From Gemmatimonadota bacterium (GTDB taxonomy: Bacteria; JBHIER01; G020348925), in NCBI GenBank assembly GCA_020348925.1, contig CP070758.1, positions 2,357,782-2,421,781 on the forward strand: 64,000 nt of DNA. The letters run 5' to 3'. A program made the position numbers and the translations under genes. Of this stretch, positions 46,661 through 59,736 are shown in pieces. The notes under the pieces were generated by a model, which saw nothing but the letters and a program-made list of their open reading frames with translations, searched no databases and had not been told where the DNA came from. Numbering within the stretch: the first letter of the stretch is position 1; each line of letters begins with the position of its first letter.

Positions 46661-46801
46661 TTTGTCATCTCGGAAATACAACGGTTTTCAAGATGGTTCA
46701 GGGGAGGTCGGGAAAAAGGGTGTGCTTTCCCCAGAGGGTAGCGCGTTTCGATGTGAATTGGCGGAGCGTCTTAACTCGTCCCAATTATCGACCTGAGGAC
46801 G

Positions 46802-46862: not shown

Positions 46863-46901
46863 CAGAGATGAGGTTTCATCAGTGAAATAACCTTCCGGAA
46901 A

Positions 46902-46921
46902 TTCGGAACCTCCGGGAGGTT
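46902..46921. repeat. Short palindromic intergenic motif, copy 2
   Basis: TTCGGAACCTCCGGGAGGTT; the last 15 bases form a near-perfect palindrome (AACCTCC / GGAGGTT) followed by TTTCTCTTT, so it could also act as a weak terminator. Copy 1 is at 26506-26525 with two differences. Confidence 0.5.
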
Positions 46922-47412
46922 TTCTCTTTGTGCGAAATGAAATCCGAGGTTTCGGGTCTCTTTGTCCTTTCGAACCCCGAGCTGAGCAATACAACAGGTG
47001 TCACCAGAAAACTGGCCGTGCTGCCCGATGCACATGGCAGTCCCGTTATCTCCTGCTGAGTCAGGAGTCCTCCTTCTGACCCAAACGGAATCACATGATC
47101 GGGTTTATCCGTGTGGGCATAAAACGTCTCCCCGAGCGAAGAAGAAGAATCCGCGGCTCCTTTGAACGAAGAAATCCATGCATGTCTCATATTATCTCGT
47201 GTATTGAACCTATTTTTCCCCTGAGCTTCTCATCATTCTTAGCCTTATCATTCCCTCTAAGTTCCATATAAAAAACTACTTGTTTTTTTTTGAAAGATTT
47301 GTATATTCAGAACGAGAGGCTTGATTATGAGGTTTGAAGCTTTCCGCAGTCAAACGCCTCTTGAAGGAGTTGATTGTCAACCGGAGGGAAGGGGTTGTTC
47401 AGATGAATATTG

Positions 47413-47441
47413 TTGTCATTCATGTATCATATATTTATACC
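47413..47441 (+). promoter_or_regulatory. Candidate promoter of the membrane protein/FHA/kinase cassette
   Basis: TTGTCA (47413-47418) and TATACC (47436-47441) with a 17-bp spacer, about 140 bp upstream of the first gene. It would transcribe the four genes to 53801. Confidence 0.5.
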
Positions 47442-47581
47442 AATAAGTAATATATTCAGTAGCAGTCCCCACGTTAGGAAAAAATGATGTGTTTTGCGTT
47501 CGGAAAAAACGCGTCTCTTCGAATTGACGAGGCAGGGCGTGCGGGAATTGCCGATCACCACATTTGTGTGGGCAAATAACA

Positions 47582-49261
47582 ATGGAGAAGAAGACGGTTC
47601 TGTCGTTATTTTTTATTTTTGTAAGTACTTTAGTATTGCTCTTTGGTTCCTATTCCTTGGACAAAAGCGGCTTCTCTTCGGGCTCTTTTGAGAACGGGAT
47701 ATGGGATTGGCTCTTGCCGGATGATCCCTTTACCGCCCAGAGTTTCTTGGGCTCGGTAGCGGAGGTCATCTGCGGGATTTTAGCTATTGCCATCACTGTC
47801 GTGGCAATAATAGTCCAGCTTGCTGCAAACAGATATACCTCGAAAATAATTGACTTGTTCATCAACAACGCGGTCAATGTCATCATTTTAAGTTCCTTTG
47901 TCGTGACTTCGGTTTACGGTCTTTGGGTGACGAATTCGATCGAGGTCACAGCGAATGGACTGCCTGGGGAGAATTTTTTCCCGAGAATAGGGATCTCGGC
48001 TTATTTGGTCTTGACAAGCATAAGCTTTTTCGTGTTGGTTCCGTATTTCTTTTATGTCTTCTATTTTCTTAAACCGCAAAACATTATTAATAGAATAAAG
48101 AGGCAAGCCGACGGTTTTCTGAAGGAGGCGGTTATTAAGAACAGGAAATTGGGTACTGAAAAGAGCAATGACTTGCTTCAGGATAACGTCAACACCCTTC
48201 AAGATAACGTCATAGCCAATATAGAGCAATTAAGTGAGATGGCCATGAGCTCGCTCACCCAAGCCGATCGAAGTTTGGGTGTGGATTGTATAAAATCTAT
48301 GCAAGAAATTCTAACCGGAGAGAGTGATCATACTGAAGGACATGACCTGAAAGAGGGGTACTTGGATCGAAAAAAGCAATTTCCGAAAGAGTGGCTTGAG
48401 GTTCAGCGGAAGCATTTTGGGGAATTTGATCAGGAAACTATCAACGAGCTCGTGTTACTCAGGTACTGGGTCGAAATGAAAATCGCGCAGGAATTTTTAG
48501 CGATCCTCATTCACTCTCTGAATAAGGAACGAAAATTGGTGAACACCATTGCCATCAGCACTCGAGAAATTGGGGAGAAGGCATTGAGATTGAGAAGCGG
48601 GTCGGATGATGCTGTTTTGCATCTCACAATAAACTCATTCAATACATATTTAAAGCATGGTATAGACAAAGATGACATCCTGTCCACTATTGACATACTC
48701 TACCAGTATCGTTTTTTTGCTGAAAAAATATTACAGGAAAGCGAGGATCCAAACATTGTCATTGTCATTGCAAATCGTTTCAAAGATTACGGGCGCATTG
48801 CTTTTGTGGAACACATGGCTCCTGTGTTAGAAACCATTGCTTTTGATCTGAGAAGCTTAAATGAGGTTGCGTTCAAATGTTACAGAGCAAAGAATGAAGC
48901 TGACGAGTATAAAAATATCATACGGAAGCTTTTAGATATTTTTCTCGCCGTGGATGATTTTCCGGAGCGCAGTCAAGATGAAGAAACACTCGTTGGGGTG
49001 CGGAAAAGCCAGGCAATATTGGCCAGTTTTTATATGTTGCGAAAGCATGATACCTTTTGCAGTGAACTTCTCACGAAGATAAGAAATGATATGAAAGAAG
49101 AGCCTCTTGATCGATTGCGATCGATTAAAAAGGAGATCTTGGCGTGTGAAACGGAAATGCAGCCTGTGATTGATGAAAATAGGCCAAACAGAGAATATAT
49201 CACACTCAACAGAAAGGATGCGTTAATCGAGTTCTTTGAGCAATTGGGAATCGATCCTTAA
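47582..49261 (+). CDS. DUF2254-like membrane protein
   Basis: A 559-residue inner-membrane protein. Four hydrophobic helices occupy the first 165 residues. The second and third region (GILAIAITVVAIIVQLAANRY, then NNAVNVIILSSFVVTSVYGLW) fits the DUF2254 pattern of a membrane-embedded QLA-x-x-[RY]-rich turn. The C-terminal 390 residues are soluble, mostly helical, with no recognised motif, and are longer than in typical DUF2254 proteins. The function of DUF2254 is unknown. It opens the kinase cassette, 59 bp before the FHA gene. Start assignment (ATG 47582 or TTG 47564) is uncertain as no ribosome binding site stands out. Confidence 0.72.
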   Translation: MEKKTVLSLFFIFVSTLVLLFGSYSLDKSGFSSGSFENGIWDWLLPDDPFTAQSFLGSVAEVICGILAIAITVVAIIVQLAANRYTSKIIDLFINNAVNVIILSSFVVTSVYGLWVTNSIEVTANGLPGENFFPRIGISAYLVLTSISFFVLVPYFFYVFYFLKPQNIINRIKRQADGFLKEAVIKNRKLGTEKSNDLLQDNVNTLQDNVIANIEQLSEMAMSSLTQADRSLGVDCIKSMQEILTGESDHTEGHDLKEGYLDRKKQFPKEWLEVQRKHFGEFDQETINELVLLRYWVEMKIAQEFLAILIHSLNKERKLVNTIAISTREIGEKALRLRSGSDDAVLHLTINSFNTYLKHGIDKDDILSTIDILYQYRFFAEKILQESEDPNIVIVIANRFKDYGRIAFVEHMAPVLETIAFDLRSLNEVAFKCYRAKNEADEYKNIIRKLLDIFLAVDDFPERSQDEETLVGVRKSQAILASFYMLRKHDTFCSELLTKIRNDMKEEPLDRLRSIKKEILACETEMQPVIDENRPNREYITLNRKDALIEFFEQLGIDP

Positions 49262-49320
49262 GACACCATCGCCAAATTGATGTCAACAGAGTTCATATCA
49301 TGGAGGGTGGAGGTACTGTC

Positions 49321-49746
49321 ATGATTGATAAAAACAGAGCAAAGAAAAAGATTATCTGGGTTGTTCAAATTTTAGATAATAAGGGTACCGAGTACCCTCT
49401 CGATGCAGGGAAAACAAAAATAGGCAGATATCCGAAGGTGAACGATATTGTGATAGACGCACAATTCGGACGTGTTTCCAGGGAACACTGCTCTCTTACT
49501 GTTAAGGAGACCAGTGCCAAGGCAGGAGACGAACCATCCATTCCGGATTGTTTGTATAAAGATATTGGGAGTGCAAACGGAAGTTACAAGATACTCTCCG
49601 GACAGAGACCTCGGGAGTTAACCAAGGGACGCTCGTATCCACTTGAAGATGGGAACATTATTCGATTGGGACACCCGGAGAACATCGAAGGTACGGTGGA
49701 CATTCGATTCGTAACGAGGAAATTTCTTGAAACCTTGATTGAATAG
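49321..49746 (+). CDS. FHA domain protein
   Basis: A 141-residue protein consisting of one forkhead-associated domain, which binds phosphothreonine peptides. The recognition motifs are present: TKIGRYPKVNDIVID, RVSREHCSL (the S-x-x-H core) and DIGSANGSYKI (the N-G turn). A basic N-terminus (DKNRAKKKI) precedes the first strand. With the adjacent Ser/Thr kinase it forms a natural pair: the kinase phosphorylates a threonine, possibly its own, and the FHA domain binds it. ATG 49321 follows GGAGG with 8-base spacing. Confidence 0.88.
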   Translation: MIDKNRAKKKIIWVVQILDNKGTEYPLDAGKTKIGRYPKVNDIVIDAQFGRVSREHCSLTVKETSAKAGDEPSIPDCLYKDIGSANGSYKILSGQRPRELTKGRSYPLEDGNIIRLGHPENIEGTVDIRFVTRKFLETLIE

Positions 49747-49832
49747 AAAGCCTGCCGTCAGGAATCCGTATTCTTGTATTGGTGCCAAATGTTCATGCAG
49801 GGAAATGATTTCGCTTTCAGATAGGATGTGCC

Positions 49833-52800
49833 ATGAAGGGAACATTAGCCGGGGGAAAATATAAAATCGGCCAATTTATAGGAGAAGGCAGGTTTAGCAA
49901 GGTCTATGATGCCCATCATAGCGCTTTGAATAAAAAAGTGGCCATAAAGGAATTAAAGGAAGATTTACGGAAAGACAAAAGAGCGCTCGAGCGTTTCAAA
50001 AATGAGGCCCAAATGATCGCTCGCTTGGAGCATCCAAACATCGTGAAGATTTACGATTTTTTTGAGCACGATTACTATTTTGTCATGAGCAGGCTCTATC
50101 GTCCATTGGATTTGGAAATTCGAAGAACCAAGGGGTTTTCCTTCCCCAGAGCCCTTGGATTTTCGCTGGATCTTGCGAAAGCCCTGGAGTTTCTATCCGA
50201 AAAGAATATTATTCATCGGGATATCAAGCCTTCAAATATAATGTTCACGAAGGAAGAAAAAGGTAGGGCGGTCTTAACAGATTTTGGTATCGCTGTCAAA
50301 ATGGGTACGCCTCTGAAAGGAGCGGCTGGTACTCCGGAGTATGCATCGCCAGAGCAAATCAAAGTGGAACCGGTAGATCAGCGCTCAGATATGTATTCCT
50401 TCGGGGTGGTCCTGTATATGATCGTCACGGGTCGAGTTCCATTCTCCGGAGAAGATTTTGATGAAATCATCCAGAAACACACCACCCAAAAGCTCGTTCC
50501 TCCAAGTAAGATTGTGGGAAGAATTGATCAGCAGTTTGAAGGGATCATACTGCGACTTCTCCAGTTTGACAGAAAAGATCGGTATCCGTCGGTCGTCTCA
50601 TTGAGTGACGAATTGAATGAGGTAAAAAATCGGTATCGGGATACCGTTTTTGATCGGGCCGAACGATACGAATCCGAAGGTAAGATTATACTGGCTATTA
50701 ATGAACTCGATTCATATCTGGAAGATGTCGATCCGGACGATACGGAAATTGTGAAAAAAAGAGGTCGCATTCAAAAGATCCAGTATATCTCGAATGCCGA
50801 ACATGCCCTGAAGCGGGGGGATGTGAGCAAGGCGAAAGGGGAGATTGAGTGTGCCCGATCGTTTGACATCAGGGACGGTGTATTAGAGGATAAGGAGTAT
50901 ACCGTTGAAGCACGCATACGAAAAGCGGAAGAGTTGACCGAAGATGCCAAAAAGTTGTTAGAGACAAAACGTTTTGAAGCGGCCAAGGAGAAGTTTCAGG
51001 AACTGCAGAACGTGGAACCAGAGAACTATGATATCAATAAATATATTGAGTCATGTGAGTCGCTTGTTGAGGCGTTTGAAAACAAGAAAAAGAAAGATTA
51101 TCAAAGTGCGTTGCAGAAATTAAGAAATGCCAAGGAGAGTTTCCCTGATGTTCTCTATATTGAAGACGAGATGAAGCAGATTGAAAAAGTCGTTCAGGAG
51201 TTGGAACACCTTGTTGATGAACATAATGACTTGGTCAAGACGTATACTGAGAATCTACCAATCTCCAAGCTCGGTTCGGAATTGGAGAAAGTCAAGGAGT
51301 CCAACGTGCTGTTCGACAACACTGCTCAGGATGAACTGAAACAGATTTACTGCCAAATTCATTTCGCCATTGCCGAAATATTATTAAAGGATGGGGAACC
51401 TGACGTCGAATCGATAAAACTCCAATTGCGGCAAGCTTTAAATGACGATCCTGAATTTCTACCGGCGAAGATAAAGATGGCACTGGTTGAAGTTATGGCT
51501 GAGAATTATCAAGCCGCCAAAATGATTTACCATGACCTGACTCCCGTTGATAGTACGTTCAATACGAATTTGGAGCTGATGACGCTTCTCAGTGCGGCGA
51601 GTAAGAAGAGCAGGAACAGACATTATGATGAAGCACTTTCCGCACTGAACGAGGCGAGTAGGACATTGGACGAGGAACAGGCCCATCATGCCAGCATTAT
51701 CGGAGAGAAGATACAAAAAATCCGACAACAAATTGAAGATAAACAGAAAATGAAGCACATTGATGAGACCCAGATAGAACACACACCCCTGCCTTCTGGA
51801 CGGAAACCCGAAAGGATGGGAAGGGAAAAAACAATAACCGAACCTATTGAGGAAGTCAAAAAGAGTCGAGTGAAAAGAGCATGCATCCTCATCCCTGCGG
51901 CTGTTGTGGTTCTATTTTGCTTGGTTTATCTTCTCTTCTTCAACAAACCCGGAGTCACGCCGGAAGATACGAAAGCGTATCAACATGCTTTGGCTTTCGA
52001 CGACGATGGAGAGAAGAGTATCGATGAGAAAATCAGAGTATGGAAAGATTTTGGGGTAGACTTCCCCACCTCCCAATGGATACAACAGGCGCAGGAACGT
52101 CTACGGTATTGGGGTGAGGCGGCTTATCAGCAAGCACAACGGATTGATGCCGATAGCACCGCCTCGGACGATGAGAAGCTGGGGGCCTGGAAGTATTTTA
52201 TAGAACTCTGCGAAAGTCTGGTTCAAGATTCTCTCGTGGGCTCACGGATTGATTCTGCCAATGAGAGATTGAACTATTACCAGGCGATACTCGTTGATCC
52301 TGGCAAAGGGAAGGCAGAGGAGGCCTTTGCGCATGCTCAGGCCGTGGATCAAGACCCGGCGCGTTCCCCTCAGGAGAAGATCGGAATGTGGCAAGAATTA
52401 CAGAGAGAGTATTCCTCCTCCCCCTATGTATCGGAGGCCGAGAAAAGGATCCGTTTCTGGACAGGGGAGTTGGGGAAAAAGGCTTATATCCTGGCCCAAG
52501 AGGCCGATCAGGATCCCATGAGATCTCCGCAAGAGAAGATCGGAATGTGGCAGAAATTTGTAAAGGATTATCCCTCCTCTGCAAACGTATCGAGGGCCAA
52601 GAAGAGAATTCTTTTCTGGCGGAGCGAAATTGTTTTCAATGACACCTACAGCCTGGATAGGGATGAGGGTGCTTCTCCTCAAGAGAAGAGCGCAGCGTGG
52701 AGCGCATTTATCGAGAACTATCCTTCATCGGAAAGAGTTGGTGAGGCCGAGGAAAGAATCCGCTATTGGGCAATGGTATTCATTGAAGACTTCGAAAACA

Positions 52801-53306
52801 ATGATCATGGCTGGCCGCAGAACAGCAGCAAGGATGTGACCAATTATACGGACCTGGGGGATTACACGGTCTTCTACAGCACCACCGCCCGGATGACGAC
52901 GTACAACGACGCTCAGGATTACGGCAATTTTGAGCTTCGGACGTCAGTCCGGTACAGCAGTGGCGAGAACACACAGATGTTTGGTATCGCCTTCCGGATC
53001 AAAGATCACGGCAATTTCTATATATTCGGCATCTCAGGAGATGGTCGGTACTCTTTCCGAAAAAAGGTCGACTATGAGACCTACAGTATTTCCGGTGGTG
53101 AGTCGAATGCTATTCATCAGGAAAAAGGAGCTGTGAACTCGATCAGATTTTTAGTGGATACTCACCGATTCGAGTTTTATATCAATGGAGTTTTTGTGGC
53201 CGGTCGAGAGGATGAATCGATTGATTCTGGTAAAATTGGTTTTTATGTCGAACCGCGAGTAATGGTTCATTTTGATTATCTCAATGTTGTGCCTTTCACC
53301 AAATAA
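49833..53306 (+). CDS. Serine/threonine protein kinase with TPR-like region, membrane span, tandem repeats and lectin-like domain
   Basis: A 1157-residue modular kinase. Residues 10-270 are a complete Hanks-type kinase: glycine loop GEGRFSKV, K39 in VAIKEL, HRDIKPSNIMF with D130, DFGIAV with D150, and GTPEYASPEQ. Residues about 275-680 are helical, TPR-like. A single membrane span lies at about 683-703 (ILIPAAVVVLFCLVYLLFF). Outside it, about 714-982 hold five tandem helical units of 50-60 residues with the pattern SPQEKIGMWQ, YPSS and [KE]RIRFW; the third and fourth are close copies. The last 175 residues (IEDFENNDHGWPQ, then GIAFRIKDHGNFYIFGI and FEFYINGVFVAG) look like a concanavalin-like jelly-roll domain. 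It is likely a receptor kinase sensing an extracytoplasmic ligand. Confidence 0.93.
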   Translation: MKGTLAGGKYKIGQFIGEGRFSKVYDAHHSALNKKVAIKELKEDLRKDKRALERFKNEAQMIARLEHPNIVKIYDFFEHDYYFVMSRLYRPLDLEIRRTKGFSFPRALGFSLDLAKALEFLSEKNIIHRDIKPSNIMFTKEEKGRAVLTDFGIAVKMGTPLKGAAGTPEYASPEQIKVEPVDQRSDMYSFGVVLYMIVTGRVPFSGEDFDEIIQKHTTQKLVPPSKIVGRIDQQFEGIILRLLQFDRKDRYPSVVSLSDELNEVKNRYRDTVFDRAERYESEGKIILAINELDSYLEDVDPDDTEIVKKRGRIQKIQYISNAEHALKRGDVSKAKGEIECARSFDIRDGVLEDKEYTVEARIRKAEELTEDAKKLLETKRFEAAKEKFQELQNVEPENYDINKYIESCESLVEAFENKKKKDYQSALQKLRNAKESFPDVLYIEDEMKQIEKVVQELEHLVDEHNDLVKTYTENLPISKLGSELEKVKESNVLFDNTAQDELKQIYCQIHFAIAEILLKDGEPDVESIKLQLRQALNDDPEFLPAKIKMALVEVMAENYQAAKMIYHDLTPVDSTFNTNLELMTLLSAASKKSRNRHYDEALSALNEASRTLDEEQAHHASIIGEKIQKIRQQIEDKQKMKHIDETQIEHTPLPSGRKPERMGREKTITEPIEEVKKSRVKRACILIPAAVVVLFCLVYLLFFNKPGVTPEDTKAYQHALAFDDDGEKSIDEKIRVWKDFGVDFPTSQWIQQAQERLRYWGEAAYQQAQRIDADSTASDDEKLGAWKYFIELCESLVQDSLVGSRIDSANERLNYYQAILVDPGKGKAEEAFAHAQAVDQDPARSPQEKIGMWQELQREYSSSPYVSEAEKRIRFWTGELGKKAYILAQEADQDPMRSPQEKIGMWQKFVKDYPSSANVSRAKKRILFWRSEIVFNDTYSLDRDEGASPQEKSAAWSAFIENYPSSERVGEAEERIRYWAMVFIEDFENNDHGWPQNSSKDVTNYTDLGDYTVFYSTTARMTTYNDAQDYGNFELRTSVRYSSGENTQMFGIAFRIKDHGNFYIFGISGDGRYSFRKKVDYETYSISGGESNAIHQEKGAVNSIRFLVDTHRFEFYINGVFVAGREDESIDSGKIGFYVEPRVMVHFDYLNVVPFTK

Positions 53307-53321
53307 AGAAGGGGAGGTGTC

Positions 53322-53801
53322 ATGTTGAAAAAATATGTTTCGCTCGTCTTGACCGTAACATGTCTCTTTTCGGTTCTCCTGACGGATTTGAATTGGGCCT
53401 TCTTGATAATGGAATCCGCTACAGTGACGATCAGTACGAAGCCGGGAGAAGCGGATGTCTACATTGATGGCAATTTTGCCGGGACGTCTGCGATCAAGGG
53501 GAAACGCATATCTGTGGGAAAACATATCATCCGTGTGGAGAAAGAAGGATATATCCCCTGGGAGGGCGAAATTGAAATAGTTGCCGGTGAAAACGTGATA
53601 GATATTCCTCCCTTACAGATTAAGACAGAACCGGAACCTCTGGTAACAAAAAAACAAAAGTCATGGTATGAAAAATGGTGGATATATGGCTTAGGAGCGG
53701 TCGTTGCCGGTTCGCTTGCCGCTCTGTCAGGTGGTGGTGGTAATGGAGGTAACGGTGGTTCAACGCCTCTCCCGTCACCGCCTTCACCGCCCGGAAACTG
53801 A
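53322..53801 (+). CDS. PEGA domain protein with glycine/proline-rich tail
   Basis: A 159-residue exported or membrane-anchored protein. An N-terminal hydrophobic stretch (about 5-30) is followed by a PEGA domain (about 37-100: VTISTKPGEADVYIDGNFAG, then GKHIIRVEKEGYIPW). A second hydrophobic segment (about 118-135, WWIYGLGAVVAGSLAAL) and a Gly/Pro-rich tail (GGGGNGGNGG, PSPPSPPG) follow. PEGA domains are beta-rich modules in envelope proteins and signalling proteins, often beside Ser/Thr kinases. It lies 15 bp after the kinase gene and is probably a partner or target of it. Confidence 0.85.
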   Translation: MLKKYVSLVLTVTCLFSVLLTDLNWAFLIMESATVTISTKPGEADVYIDGNFAGTSAIKGKRISVGKHIIRVEKEGYIPWEGEIEIVAGENVIDIPPLQIKTEPEPLVTKKQKSWYEKWWIYGLGAVVAGSLAALSGGGGNGGNGGSTPLPSPPSPPGN

Positions 53802-53880: not shown

Positions 53881-56493
53881 ATGATCAGAAAAGGATTGAT
53901 TCTTGTGGTAGTTGTGTCTCTCTTCTCCCTGCTTTTTGCTCAAACGGAAGCCGATGCAGAAAGGTTCAAGAGCAACGTTCAAAAAAAAGTATATTCTGTC
54001 CCAAGCCAGGAACAAAAGATTCGGCCTATTCAATCGGAGAAGCCTCAGGCAGTGATCCGATCTTTTTTCGGTGAGGGAGACACCCTTCAAAATGATGATT
54101 ACCCGACCAATTGCGGAGAATATGTTCACTATTTCCGGGACGTGGATTACAATGCGGCAAAATTTTCTCCATTGAAGAATTGCACGTTAGATTCGGTTCT
54201 GTTCCTTTTTTGGGTGCCACCCGATTCTGCCTATGTTTTTCAAGAGTGTAGCCTTTTTGTTTGGAACGATTCGGGCATGAACATGCCGGGGAACCGAAGA
54301 TTTGCCGAAGCATTTGTACTGCCTTCATTTTTTCCCGGCGAAATTAAATGGCTCATCTGGGATATGTCCCAGGTGGAGCTCACGTTCTCATCGGACTTCT
54401 GGATTGGCTATAAAAAAATGGCTGTGGGACCTCCTTTCTCTATAATAGACTGCACGTCAACGGCCGAAATGCGCAATATGTGGCGAACGTTTCCGACCGA
54501 TTCATGGATGTCCTGGCAGGAGAACGATGTCGTCATCCGCGCCATGGTGACCTACCATTCCGGGATCACGGCATCCGAAGATTTTCACAATTTTGGAGAT
54601 GTCGGGATAGGGTGTTCGTCAAATTGGGTCCTGAACATTTCAAATCCGGGGACCGAAGCGGTGACTGTGAGCGACGTCACTTCAGATCAAACGGAGTTTA
54701 GTGTGAACATTACTTCCTTCACTTTGAATCCGGGCGCAGAGCAGGACATCACCGTTCTCTTTGCACCTCTGAACGTGGGGGAAATTTCCGGGGGACTCGC
54801 TCTTCTGACCAATGAAGAAACAGACACGCTCCACGTTTCGCTTCGCGGTAGCGGGATTCTCGAAAACGTTGCCCCAGATATCACTTTTAACCCAGCCTCG
54901 GTTTCAATCCCAAGCGTCGAACATTCGGCGACCATCAATACGATTACGATAACCGATAACTGCACCCTTGAGAAGGCCCGCCTTTTTTATCGAAAAGGCG
55001 GGACGACCTCCTATGACTCTTTGGAACTTCAGGGGGTGGGTGGAACAAGTTACAGCGGAACGATTCCCAGTTCTTCGGTCACGCCTCGGGGAGTGGAATA
55101 TTACATGAAAGCAATCGACATGAGTGGCAACAGTGCAACCTCCCCATCAACAGATCCCGGGATCAATCCTCATGTTCTGCGTGTCAATGTCCCCGATTTG
55201 ACCAAAACTCCCGAGCAGCCTGCGGGGTTCTATCGGATGATATCCGTTCCTCTCAATTTGGATGACGAATCCCCTGATGCAGTCCTGGTGGATGATCTGG
55301 GGAGCTATGATAACACCGTATGGCGGCTTTTCCACTATCAGGGGAGTGATTACGTTGAATACGGAGAAGGCATAGAGAGTTTTACCTCAGGTAATGGATT
55401 TTGGCTTATCACCAAGAATGCCAAGACGATTGATAGCGGATCGGGTCAATCGGTTACGACGGCATCGAACTTTGTCATTTCCCTTCAACCCGGATGGAAT
55501 ATGATCGCCAATCCCTTCTACTTTGACGTTGCTTGGAATGAGGTGATCAGAGATGATGCGGTGGAGGAATCGTTCTGGGGATATGATGGTCAAGGCTATG
55601 TCGAGAAGTCTCGATTGGTTCCCTGGGAGGGTTATTTTCTCAAGAATCGGGAAAGTTACCCTGTGAATATCGAAATCCCTCCGAAGGAGGCTGGTGGATC
55701 AACCAAATCAGGGTTTGTGTCATTCGCCGAGAATATGAATTTGGAAGGGGAGTGGTGGATTCAGATCCGGGCCCGAGTGGGTGATTTCTGCGATTCAAAG
55801 AATTACATCGGCCATTGTGCCGGTTCTCGTCTCGAGTGGGATGCGATGGATCTCTCAGAGCCACCGAAGCCGCCGGGCGACTATGTGGCGCTCTATTTTC
55901 CCCACCACAACTGGGAGAACTATCCGGGATGCTACACGACTGATTTCAGGTCGATGGCGGAAGAAGGAACAGTCTGGGACTTTCGCGTCGACACGAATAC
56001 TCCGGAGTTCCATGGTCATCTGGAATTCGGAAATCTCTCCTCGGTCCCGGCACATCTTGAGGTTTTTTTGCTCGATATCTCGTCCCGCAAAGCTGTGGAT
56101 GTTCGATCGAACGAAGACTACGCGTTCAGGGCGCAAACCGGTCGCTCCTTTTCTATTGCCGTGGGCCCTAAGGATTTCACTTTGCCGTACTGTGAGAGTG
56201 AAATTTCCGTTCCTGAAGAGTATGCTCTCCGGCAGAATTACCCCAATCCCTTTAACGCCGAGACACGAATTTGTTATGAGCTGCCCCAGCCCTGCCACGT
56301 GACGTTGAAAATCTTCAATCTCGTGGGGCAGGAGGTGAGAACACTTGTCGAGAGTGAGAGGGACGCAGGATACCAAGCGATACCCTGGGACGGAAAGAAC
56401 AGCCATGGCATCGATGTGTCCAGCGGAGCGTATCTGTATGTCCTCGAGACGGAGTATTTCAGACAGACGAAAAGCCTCATTCTCCTCAGGTGA
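53881..56493 (+). CDS. Secreted protein with ASH domain and C-terminal sorting-tail-like domain
   Basis: An 870-residue exported protein. A signal peptide (about 1-20) is followed by an N-terminal region (about 60-225) with cysteines and an aromatic-rich beta pattern. One ASH domain lies at about 228-320 (FHNFGDVGIGCSSNWVLNI), then an Ig-like domain with paired strands DITFNPASVSIPS. A further region with repeated GNGFWLITKN- and PGWNMIANPFY-like segments occurs around 500-560. The tail (about 775-870) reads EYALRQNYPNPFNAETRI, FNLVGQEVRTLV, IPWDGKNSHGIDVSSGAYLYVLE and SLILLR, the sorting-tail type. No enzymatic motif is visible. It lies 79 bp after the PEGA gene, with AAGGAGG upstream. Confidence 0.83.
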   Translation: MIRKGLILVVVVSLFSLLFAQTEADAERFKSNVQKKVYSVPSQEQKIRPIQSEKPQAVIRSFFGEGDTLQNDDYPTNCGEYVHYFRDVDYNAAKFSPLKNCTLDSVLFLFWVPPDSAYVFQECSLFVWNDSGMNMPGNRRFAEAFVLPSFFPGEIKWLIWDMSQVELTFSSDFWIGYKKMAVGPPFSIIDCTSTAEMRNMWRTFPTDSWMSWQENDVVIRAMVTYHSGITASEDFHNFGDVGIGCSSNWVLNISNPGTEAVTVSDVTSDQTEFSVNITSFTLNPGAEQDITVLFAPLNVGEISGGLALLTNEETDTLHVSLRGSGILENVAPDITFNPASVSIPSVEHSATINTITITDNCTLEKARLFYRKGGTTSYDSLELQGVGGTSYSGTIPSSSVTPRGVEYYMKAIDMSGNSATSPSTDPGINPHVLRVNVPDLTKTPEQPAGFYRMISVPLNLDDESPDAVLVDDLGSYDNTVWRLFHYQGSDYVEYGEGIESFTSGNGFWLITKNAKTIDSGSGQSVTTASNFVISLQPGWNMIANPFYFDVAWNEVIRDDAVEESFWGYDGQGYVEKSRLVPWEGYFLKNRESYPVNIEIPPKEAGGSTKSGFVSFAENMNLEGEWWIQIRARVGDFCDSKNYIGHCAGSRLEWDAMDLSEPPKPPGDYVALYFPHHNWENYPGCYTTDFRSMAEEGTVWDFRVDTNTPEFHGHLEFGNLSSVPAHLEVFLLDISSRKAVDVRSNEDYAFRAQTGRSFSIAVGPKDFTLPYCESEISVPEEYALRQNYPNPFNAETRICYELPQPCHVTLKIFNLVGQEVRTLVESERDAGYQAIPWDGKNSHGIDVSSGAYLYVLETEYFRQTKSLILLR

Positions 56494-56727: not shown

Positions 56728-59700
56728 ATGAGAACCATGAGGTGGCGGATCCTGGTTTGTACAGGTCTCCTGTTTGTGACAACGGGTCTCTTTTCAAAAG
56801 TGAGTTCCACGCAACAAGGAAAACAGAACTGTGGTGAGAGGCTTCCGCACATGTCCCCTGCATCTCGATCGGAGGCCCTGAGACTCTCGCTGTTCGTGGA
56901 GGAAGACGTCTCTCTCTTGATTGGAGAAAAAAGGGAAGCTGTGGACGAACTTCAGCGGCTTCTTCGTGCTGCGACATTGAGAATTCCTGAACGAGAAGCA
57001 GACGATGACCGACATGAGAGAACATCACGTGAAGGGAACGTGGAGCTGCTCCGGGAAGACTTTGAAGGTGTTTTTCCTTCGGGAAATTGGGATGTTTTTG
57101 ATTGCGATAGTACGATGCATGGTGAGTATTATTGGGGACGAGATGATTCGAAACCGCATCAGGGGAGCCACAGCGCCTGGTGCGCGGCCGGCGGAGCCAA
57201 CGGTTGCGACCCAACCAGCGACGATTATCCCAATGACGCCTGTTCATACATGGTCAACGGTCCTTTTGATCTCAGCGACGCCGGAGGCGCCCACCTCAAT
57301 TTTTATTTCTGGATGGATACGGAAGATGACGCTGATTCCTTCATGTGGTTTGTTCTTCGGGGCGACTCTCTCTTCGGTACAATCACTTCGGGGAAGACGG
57401 GTGGTTGGATCTCTCAAAACGAGGATTTGTCGTCCTTCGCTGAACGGAATTTCTTGGGAGCGCCTCAAATTTTTGTAGGCTTCGTCTTTCTCAGCAACGG
57501 CAACAACACGAATAAAGGGGTTTTCTTGGATGATATCCTTGTGAACAAAACAGCAAGTGAACCGGATATTGCCGTCTCCCCGGATACGCTCGCTTTTCAG
57601 GTAGCGGGCGAAGTGCGGTGCGCAGGCTCACGTTCAAAAGTTCAAGGGGAGGCCTATCGAGGGCAGGGTGATCCTTCGTTCAAGAGATTATCGGCTGATG
57701 GAGTTGAGGGCGTGATTTCTTCGCTGACCTCGGTCCAGAAACAATCACCTCCTTCAAGCGTTCACTTTCGTATCGACAGTGATCAAAGTGATACCCTCAT
57801 ATATGATGATGGGACACCGGCAGGTACGTATCATTGGGGAGCTGGGGCGAAAATGGCGTCCCGGATGAGTCCGGTCGATGCCTGTCAGATAGTGGCAATC
57901 CAGATATTTTGTCATCACGCCCAGACCTATAAAGTGGGCCTGTATGACTGGACGGGCAGCGCGCCCGGGGCTGAACTTTTCGAAACGGGTCTCGTTTCTG
58001 CCTCAGACCAGGGTTGGAACACAACGGACATCGCTTCCCAGACCATCACCGTGACCGGAGAGTTCGTAGCGTCTTTCAATATGGTGGACACGGTTGCCGC
58101 TTTAGGGTTTGACCCCTCGAACAACGGCAGGGCTTGGGATTATAACGGTTCATCGTGGAGTTCTTGGGACGAGACGTATTTCATCCGGGCGATTGTTGCG
58201 TATGCGGGAGGGGTGCCAGATACGATCGGGACGATGGTTGTCAGAAACACCGGTGGCGTGGACCTCGTGGTGAGTGATATCACGACGAGCCAAGGTTGGA
58301 TCACCTCCATCGAGCCCCGTGCCTTTACGGCTGCGGCCGGCGGGACGGAACACGTGACTGTGACCGTGAGCACTGTAGGACTTCCTCTTGGGATGTATTA
58401 TGGGTTTCTGAATATTTCTTCGAACGACCCTGACGAGAATCCCTATGTCGAACCTGTGAGGTTAGAGGTCTATGGTGGGGGTGCACCACGTATGGTTGTC
58501 TCCCCGGATACGCTCTTCTTCTCGCTCGGACCCGCCTCTTTGAAATCCTCACCGAGAAAGTGTGCCACGGTTCGAAAGAGCGATGGTGTGGATGGGCTCA
58601 AGCTTGGTGCGGCGGTTTCCATCTCGATCATGGATAGTAATTTTCCGGGAACAAACGGTTGTCTTGGTGGCGAGGCCGATACCCTTTCGAATCTTTTTGA
58701 ACTCCCGTTCTATTGTTTTAACGATGAGTGGCAAACGTACTATGAGGCCACAAGATTGGTTCCGTCCAGGGCTTGTACCTTGAAGGCGATTTTCGTATCC
58801 TTCTACAATTACGAGTCTTTAGCCCGGAGTAAGAGTTGTGAGTTTTATGTCTGGGACGATGGCAACGATCGACCCGGCTCAGCTCTGTGGACAGTTGTGG
58901 AGACGATATCGTTGCCGGCCGATGAAGCCGGATGGATTGTGCGCGACGTTTCGGAGAAGGCGCTCGTTCTCGAGGGCGCGTTTTGGGTGGGTCACCGGGA
59001 AATGGCGGCGGGTGCGCCCAGTTCCCTGGCGGACACGATCGTGACGGTTGGTGCAAATTATTACAGTTCAGACGGTTCATCATGGGAGGAAGACAGTTAT
59101 GACTATTTGCACATGGCGGCTGTCGCGTATGCTGAAGAGATCTCCGGCGAAGAGGACGCAGCCACAATGACGATCCGCAATACGGGGGAAGGGGTCTTGG
59201 AGGTGTCACGTATCTCCTGCAATCAGTCCTGGGTGCAGTCCATTGTTCCGGCTTCGTTTCTCGTTGTTCCCCAGAACAGCCAGCTCGTCACCATAACAGT
59301 CAGTTCTGCCGGGCTTGAGAGGGGACGGTATGATGGAATTCTGCACATTGTCTCGAACGACCCGATTGCTCCCGAGTATCAGGAACCTCTTGTGTTTGAT
59401 ATTACGCAGGTGGGTGTTGAAGAGGATGGATCTGTCTCCTTTGTGCCGCAAGCATGTGCCCTGTCTCAGAACTCTCCCAATCCCTTCAATCCTGAGACGC
59501 ATATTGAATACCAGATAGGAGAAGGGGAATCGCCCGTCCACACGACCCTCGCGGTCTACAATGTTCTTGGGCGGAAAGTGGGCACGCTGGTGGATGAGAT
59601 TCAGGCGTCTGGACACTACACCGTCACCTGGGATGGACGGGACAATGCTGGCCACGAACTTCCGAGCGGATTGTATTTCTTCATGTTGAAAGCAGGCCAT

Positions 59701-59736
59701 TTCACGGCGACCAAGAAAATGGTGCTGTTGAAGTAG
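56728..59736 (+). CDS. Large secreted multidomain protein with internal duplication and sorting-tail-like domain
   Basis: A 1002-residue exported protein. After a signal peptide (about 1-27) comes a jelly-roll-like domain (about 110-275, with FEGVFPSGNWDVFD and GVFLDDILVN). Two similar blocks follow, about 350-590 and 650-895: each has a sugar- or protein-binding-like beta domain (FICHHAQ... and FYVWDDGNDRPGSALW...) ending in a BACON/ASH-like sandwich marked by VVRNTGGVDLVVSDI and TIRNTGEGVLEVSRI. The end (CALSQNSPNPFNPETHI, YNVLGRKVGTLV, VTWDGRDNAGHELPSGLYFFML, KMVLLK) is the sorting-tail type. It may bind polymers or other cells; no catalytic motif is visible. Confidence 0.82.
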   Translation: MRTMRWRILVCTGLLFVTTGLFSKVSSTQQGKQNCGERLPHMSPASRSEALRLSLFVEEDVSLLIGEKREAVDELQRLLRAATLRIPEREADDDRHERTSREGNVELLREDFEGVFPSGNWDVFDCDSTMHGEYYWGRDDSKPHQGSHSAWCAAGGANGCDPTSDDYPNDACSYMVNGPFDLSDAGGAHLNFYFWMDTEDDADSFMWFVLRGDSLFGTITSGKTGGWISQNEDLSSFAERNFLGAPQIFVGFVFLSNGNNTNKGVFLDDILVNKTASEPDIAVSPDTLAFQVAGEVRCAGSRSKVQGEAYRGQGDPSFKRLSADGVEGVISSLTSVQKQSPPSSVHFRIDSDQSDTLIYDDGTPAGTYHWGAGAKMASRMSPVDACQIVAIQIFCHHAQTYKVGLYDWTGSAPGAELFETGLVSASDQGWNTTDIASQTITVTGEFVASFNMVDTVAALGFDPSNNGRAWDYNGSSWSSWDETYFIRAIVAYAGGVPDTIGTMVVRNTGGVDLVVSDITTSQGWITSIEPRAFTAAAGGTEHVTVTVSTVGLPLGMYYGFLNISSNDPDENPYVEPVRLEVYGGGAPRMVVSPDTLFFSLGPASLKSSPRKCATVRKSDGVDGLKLGAAVSISIMDSNFPGTNGCLGGEADTLSNLFELPFYCFNDEWQTYYEATRLVPSRACTLKAIFVSFYNYESLARSKSCEFYVWDDGNDRPGSALWTVVETISLPADEAGWIVRDVSEKALVLEGAFWVGHREMAAGAPSSLADTIVTVGANYYSSDGSSWEEDSYDYLHMAAVAYAEEISGEEDAATMTIRNTGEGVLEVSRISCNQSWVQSIVPASFLVVPQNSQLVTITVSSAGLERGRYDGILHIVSNDPIAPEYQEPLVFDITQVGVEEDGSVSFVPQACALSQNSPNPFNPETHIEYQIGEGESPVHTTLAVYNVLGRKVGTLVDEIQASGHYTVTWDGRDNAGHELPSGLYFFMLKAGHFTATKKMVLLK

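Follow-up and report, generated by a model that had tools for sequence, protein, structure and literature searches.

The window, by which we mean the whole 64,000-nucleotide stretch of the Gemmatimonadota bacterium genome that was analyzed, holds a cassette of four + strand genes between positions 47582 and 53801. An open reading frame check found all four to be intact and uninterrupted, and Pfam matches give their order as a DUF2254-related membrane protein, an FHA protein, a receptor-type Ser/Thr kinase, and a PEGA protein. The genes are spaced by 59, 86, and 15 nt, with a further 79 nt up to the first of two secreted proteins, and a consensus scan identified no terminator-like site on the + strand in any of these gaps. 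The original prediction, made from the letters of the DNA, had described four genes in the same direction with short gaps, and its coordinates, strand, and spacing are borne out. Its domain reading and gene order were also right, as Pfam backs each name, although PF10011 does so for only part of the first protein.

Upstream, the left border is marked by a dispersed repeat of ~110 bp (46666..46778, + strand), which lies outside the cassette, immediately following the upstream GWxTD gene. This repeat contains a CATCTCG..CGAGATG hairpin and has six further genomic copies at 74-78% identity. It is one of two dispersed repeat families in the upstream gap; the other, at 46885-46979, is a terminator-like element (AACCTCC..GGAGGTT-TTCT) with several genomic copies. 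The terminator-like hairpin at ~46885-46930 (AACCT..CCGG..CCGGGAGGTT-TTCT), which recurs in the genome, probably splits the cassette from the upstream gene. The layout of the gaps is compatible with a single transcript starting within 46930-47581. No promoter-like match was found on the + strand in that interval, and so the single transcript is one that we infer. The four genes include no substrate, phosphatase, or output gene.

The first gene (47582..49261, + strand) encodes a 559-residue protein with four transmembrane (TM) helices before residue 163 by hydropathy (~5-162) and an all-helical domain at ~196-554. The Pfam DUF2254 model PF10011 matches it at 60.6 bits (cut-off, 28.8), covering only residues 11-189 of 559 and positions 10-168 of the 368-position profile. 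No whole-profile match was found, and the C-terminal 370 residues are unmatched. The label "DUF2254-like," under which the protein was first described, thus holds for the four-TM half but not for the remaining helical part, which lies outside PF10011. AlphaFold2, given 11 sequences, models the second half as an all-helical solenoid (mean pLDDT, 82; pTM, 0.79), and a PDB fold search with this model returned generic helical-repeat matches only, none below an E value of 0.001. No NCBIfam model matched the protein. Within the literature searched, the DUF2254 family is seldom named, and passages on it from one paper give no function.

Immediately downstream lies the gene for a stand-alone FHA protein of 141 residues (49321..49746, + strand), predicted to be cytosolic, with no TM helix. 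Its start is most likely the ATG at 49321, which sits behind a GGAGG, rather than position 49300. PF00498 matches at 39 bits (cut-off, 20.7), and the canonical phosphothreonine-pocket residues are kept: GR at 35, SREH at 53 (S-x-x-H), and NG at 86. No relative was identified at an E value of ≤1e-5 in the other 385 genomes of our comparison, which leaves the protein in 1 of 386, its own. Elsewhere in this genome, a VWA-TM-FHA protein adjoins a second FHA protein, without a kinase beside the pair (L052 8741-10918; G000:C1:3412740-3414917, minus strand).

The pairing of FHA proteins with kinases is known, as had been pointed out for this locus, with precedents in PpkA-Fha (PMC3953482) and in the kinase-FHA pair of PknQ with MupFHA (PMC4238996). 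In the former, PpkA phosphorylates the membrane protein TssL, and the phosphothreonine is then bound by Fha (PMC3953482). As three kinds of parts in the cassette match PpkA, Fha, and TssL, the locus might be an adapted PpkA-Fha pathway, in which threonine phosphorylation would switch a secretion machine and the DUF2254-type protein would stand in for TssL. We consider this improbable. The FHA protein scores 17.1 bits against the type VI FHA model TIGR03354, whose cut-off is 120.25, and no type VI gene was recognized by eye among the translated open reading frames of the window. Moreover, the kinase ectodomain described below has no counterpart in that pathway. The type VI reading was rejected on the TIGR03354 score.

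The third gene (49833..53306, + strand) encodes the receptor-type Ser/Thr kinase, a protein of 1157 residues (PF00069, 168 bits; cut-off, 31.7). Its kinase domain (residues 10-251; 49860..50585, + strand) has PknB as its nearest solved structures and retains a complete set of catalytic motifs (GEGRFSKV at 17, VAIK at 36, HRD at 128, DFG at 150, and SPE at 172). There follows a long, presumptively cytosolic helical/TPR-like region (residues ~270-680; 50640..51872, + strand) with weak TPR-type Pfam matches only. A single TM helix predicted by hydropathy (residues 685-703; 51885..51941, + strand) then leaves ~455 residues outside. By its motifs, its one predicted membrane helix, and its modeled outer domain, the protein classes as a Hanks-type receptor Ser/Thr kinase.

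The genome encodes ~25 Hanks-type kinases in 5.04 Mb, and many of these are tandem paralogues, at 4843-4853 kb, 658-666 kb, and 1119-1132 kb (G000:C1). In its other membrane kinases the TM helix lies mostly near residue 300, compared with 685 in the window kinase. A midpoint-rooted tree built from the window kinase, 23 further kinase domains encoded in this genome, and two outside kinases places the window kinase on a long branch outside the genome's other kinases. One further reading frame (L059 6106-7911; G000:C1:292105-293910, minus strand) combines a kinase domain with a type IX-like sorting tail. Because the two halves are separated by a masked stretch, the frame may be a chimera or conceal a hidden break.

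The kinase domain also matches several PADLOC kinase models, as would that of an anti-phage defence kinase locus. This explanation strikes us as highly improbable, because the PADLOC matches fall mainly on the kinase domain, the FHA and PEGA proteins match no model, and the DUF2254-type protein matches a single one at an E value of 0.01. The genes nearby, named by eye, are housekeeping genes, among them those for a MacB-type ABC transporter, a Fur-like regulator, and a tryptophan-tRNA ligase. With no locus-level PADLOC match found, the anti-phage reading was likewise rejected.

In the structural model, the part of the kinase predicted to lie outside the membrane begins with paired helices forming TPR-like repeats (residues 715-980; 51975..52772, + strand) with a periodicity of 50-53 residues. 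The BamD model TIGR03302 matches these repeats at 43.7 bits over residues 903-978, below the model's cut-off. The protein ends in a jelly roll resembling lectins and carbohydrate-binding modules (residues 982-1157; 52776..53303, + strand; model pLDDT, 85). The closest full-domain fold to the predicted jelly roll is CBM66 (4b1m; TM-score, 0.76 of target; rmsd, 3.2 Å; 15% identity), which makes the modeled domain CBM66-like; PF06439 matches it weakly, below the cut-off. In the fold search with the ectodomain, clostridial toxin chains returned the top E values, with rmsd mostly >30 Å and low TM-scores. This likeness reflects long helices plus a jelly roll and was rejected.

Among the 386 genomes sampled, no relative of the full kinase ectodomain was found outside this one. 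Sequence relatives of the jelly roll do occur, in other envelope proteins, several of which are apparently exported or membrane anchored; in the 386 genomes they were never found on a kinase. Because of the CBM66-like fold and these envelope-type relatives, our best guess is that the ectodomain is a lectin-like sensor with a putative role in ligand binding.

The PEGA gene (53322..53801, + strand) starts 15 nt past the kinase stop, behind a GGGGAGG. Its 159-residue product has a signal-like N-terminal helix, one PEGA domain (PF08308, residues 33-92, 51.6 bits; cut-off, 20.8), a W-rich hydrophobic stretch, and a Gly/Pro tail. A PEGA partner had been regarded as unusual, which broadly holds across bacteria but not in this genome. 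PEGA is present in 211 of the 386 genomes, and at 30 comparison loci elsewhere, which are among the best-scoring ones rather than a random set and extend over only ~1.5 kb of flank each, it was fused to a kinase once and adjacent to one in no case. In the window genome the link is recurrent: three of its seven PEGA loci are kinase linked, two of them as fusions and the third being the window locus. The one-sided exact probability of this link, post hoc and against non-random comparison loci, is 0.016 with the window locus; without it (2/6 versus 1/30), the post hoc value is 0.066. Both fusions are kinases with C-terminal PEGA domains behind a TM helix (C1:4124814-4127759 and C1:4053499-4055232). 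The first of these (L053 6815-9760, minus strand) has 981 residues and carries a tandem pair of kinase domains, a TM helix, and five PEGA domains; a protein that is beta-propeller-like and carboxypeptidase-regulatory-like is encoded upstream of it. That the window's PEGA protein belongs functionally to the system is a tentative assignment, toward which we lean slightly less than away from it.

Downstream of the cassette lie two genes for secreted proteins with type IX sorting tails. The first (53881..56493, + strand; TIGR04183, 25.5 bits; cut-off, 23) also carries an ASH/choice-of-anchor domain and is possibly cotranscribed with the cassette; the second occupies 56728..59736 (+ strand; TIGR04183, 25.0 bits; cut-off, 23). 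The genome encodes the type IX translocon protein SprA (SprA_N, 153 bits). Because both tails score above the NCBIfam cut-off and SprA is present, the two proteins are probable type IX cargo. They had been put forward as outputs or ligands of the cassette; the tails stand, but that role is weak, as such tails are common in the genome. Across 20 scattered 20-kb stretches, taken as background, 6 of 295 open reading frames (~2%) have a type IX tail, compared with 4 of 84 kinase neighbors, and these rates are too close to call any association with kinases.

Relatives of the DUF2254-type protein were identified at ten other loci in other genomes. As a lone query, the protein had no match in the named genome collection, and a three-sequence alignment had three. 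At none of the ten loci is an FHA, kinase, or PEGA gene the immediate neighbor (neighbors named by eye). In Desantisbacteria, the gene adjoins those for a CHASE2 adenylate cyclase, a DUF3307-like membrane protein, and a GAF-HD-GYP protein (by eye); the conserved run there (L072 and L101) also includes an ATPase and GrpE/DnaJ. By eye, it overlaps a response regulator gene in genome G079 and adjoins the gene for an RNase H/Nudix protein in Armatimonadetes. Three genomes of family f81 (L094, L095, and L096) have a neighborhood common to all three, in which the DUF2254-type gene is flanked on one side by helicase-like and radical-SAM-like genes and on the other by a protein of an unknown family. 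The remaining loci have metabolic gene neighbors (by eye). Two genomes, G128 and G264, were considered as carriers of the same cassette, since a kinase gene and a PEGA gene both lie within ~10 kb of the DUF2254-type gene. They were rejected because unrelated genes intervene and the strands differ, and because a BLAST comparison of the window kinase's non-kinase parts with the kinase found there gave no match.

These contexts bear on whether all four genes act together. The kinase and the FHA protein, perhaps with the PEGA protein, could form the functional unit, with the DUF2254-type gene and the two secreted-protein genes lying beside them in the same direction by chance. Such an arrangement would account for DUF2254-type relatives never being immediate neighbors of FHA, kinase, or PEGA genes elsewhere and for type IX tails on ~2% of open reading frames in random stretches. 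It sits less easily with a gap of only 59 nt, free of terminator-like sites, between the DUF2254-type and FHA genes or with the signaling genes that adjoin DUF2254-type relatives in other phyla. We regard chance neighborhood as a serious possibility, short of an even one. Membership of the DUF2254-related protein in the system is itself doubtful, somewhat more so than that of the PEGA protein.

The original prediction had taken the cassette for a candidate undescribed envelope-sensing system, to be judged by conservation of the four-gene order in relatives. Our comparison covered 386 genomes, among which the window genome's relatives share only the domain level with it. In these distant genomes the cassette is not kept: the four-gene order was found at none of the ten DUF2254-type loci, and the FHA protein is confined to its own genome. 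The claim of an undescribed conserved system is thus not supported by these distant genomes, as the combination was seen once, the FHA protein has no close relative and the full ectodomain none in the sample, and DUF2254-type loci elsewhere differ. It is plausible that the cassette is instead a lineage-specific variant of receptor kinase and FHA signaling, rather than a widespread new system.

Taken together, these data make a kinase-FHA signaling pair with an envelope sensor the likely core of the locus. The fuller reading, in which the genes form a receptor-kinase operon specific to this lineage that senses the state of the cell envelope, is close to evenly balanced, with the balance just against it. 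It draws on the domains, motifs, spacing, gaps free of terminator-like sites, upstream hairpin, and ectodomain model, and also on the PEGA-fused kinases of the genome and the DUF2254-type relatives beside signaling genes in Desantisbacteria and G079. It is weakened by the combination having been found once, by the other contexts of DUF2254-type relatives, and by the jelly roll's likeness being one of shared fold.

By analogy with PpkA-Fha-TssL and PknQ-MupFHA, such an operon might work as follows. The jelly roll, perhaps aided by the PEGA protein, would bind an envelope or extracellular glycan, and this engagement would lead to dimerization of the kinase and autophosphorylation on activation-loop or juxtamembrane threonines. 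The FHA protein could then dock on a phosphothreonine of the kinase, or on one that the kinase adds to the DUF2254-related protein in its helical domain, coupling the kinase to a DUF2254-related membrane scaffold. From gene position we infer the DUF2254-type protein as partner and the PEGA protein as a helper outside. In its most complete form, the proposal is a sugar-sensing kinase system of four parts, with the DUF2254-type protein as the membrane output, regulated by phosphorylation and read by the FHA protein. That form is unlikely on present evidence, which is that of one locus in one genome; if true, it would supply a function for a membrane family so far without one. The envelope-sensing operon, if it holds, would offer a handle on DUF2254, add a receptor kinase with a lectin-like module at the end of its outer part, and suggest that kinase and PEGA modules recurrently partner in this lineage.

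Several known systems share parts of this architecture. The PF10011 DUF2254 membrane proteins have the four-TM N-terminal region in common with the window protein, whose C-terminal helical domain is unmatched by the Pfam model. PpkA-Fha-TssL offers the same trio of kinase, FHA protein, and membrane protein (PMC3953482), whereas the membrane protein here is from another family, being DUF2254 related. PknQ-MupFHA and PknB-GarA combine a stand-alone FHA protein with a receptor kinase, as in the window, and the available portions of those reports name no PEGA or DUF2254-type partner (PMC4238996, PMC6213207). In the PEGA-fused kinases of the same genome, the kinase is predicted to be cytosolic, as it is here, and PEGA lies behind the TM helix; in contrast, the window PEGA is a separate, putatively exported protein, and the window kinase is of a distant lineage. 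The PASTA kinases (PknB/PrkC/StkP) are likewise Hanks-type kinases with one TM helix and an outer ligand domain. No PASTA repeats were found in the window kinase by Pfam scan, and NF033483 matches it at 252 bits (cut-off, 450), with its best stretch on the kinase domain. Where the PASTA kinases carry their repeats, the outer part of the window kinase is predicted to consist of TPR-like repeats and a CBM66-like jelly roll.
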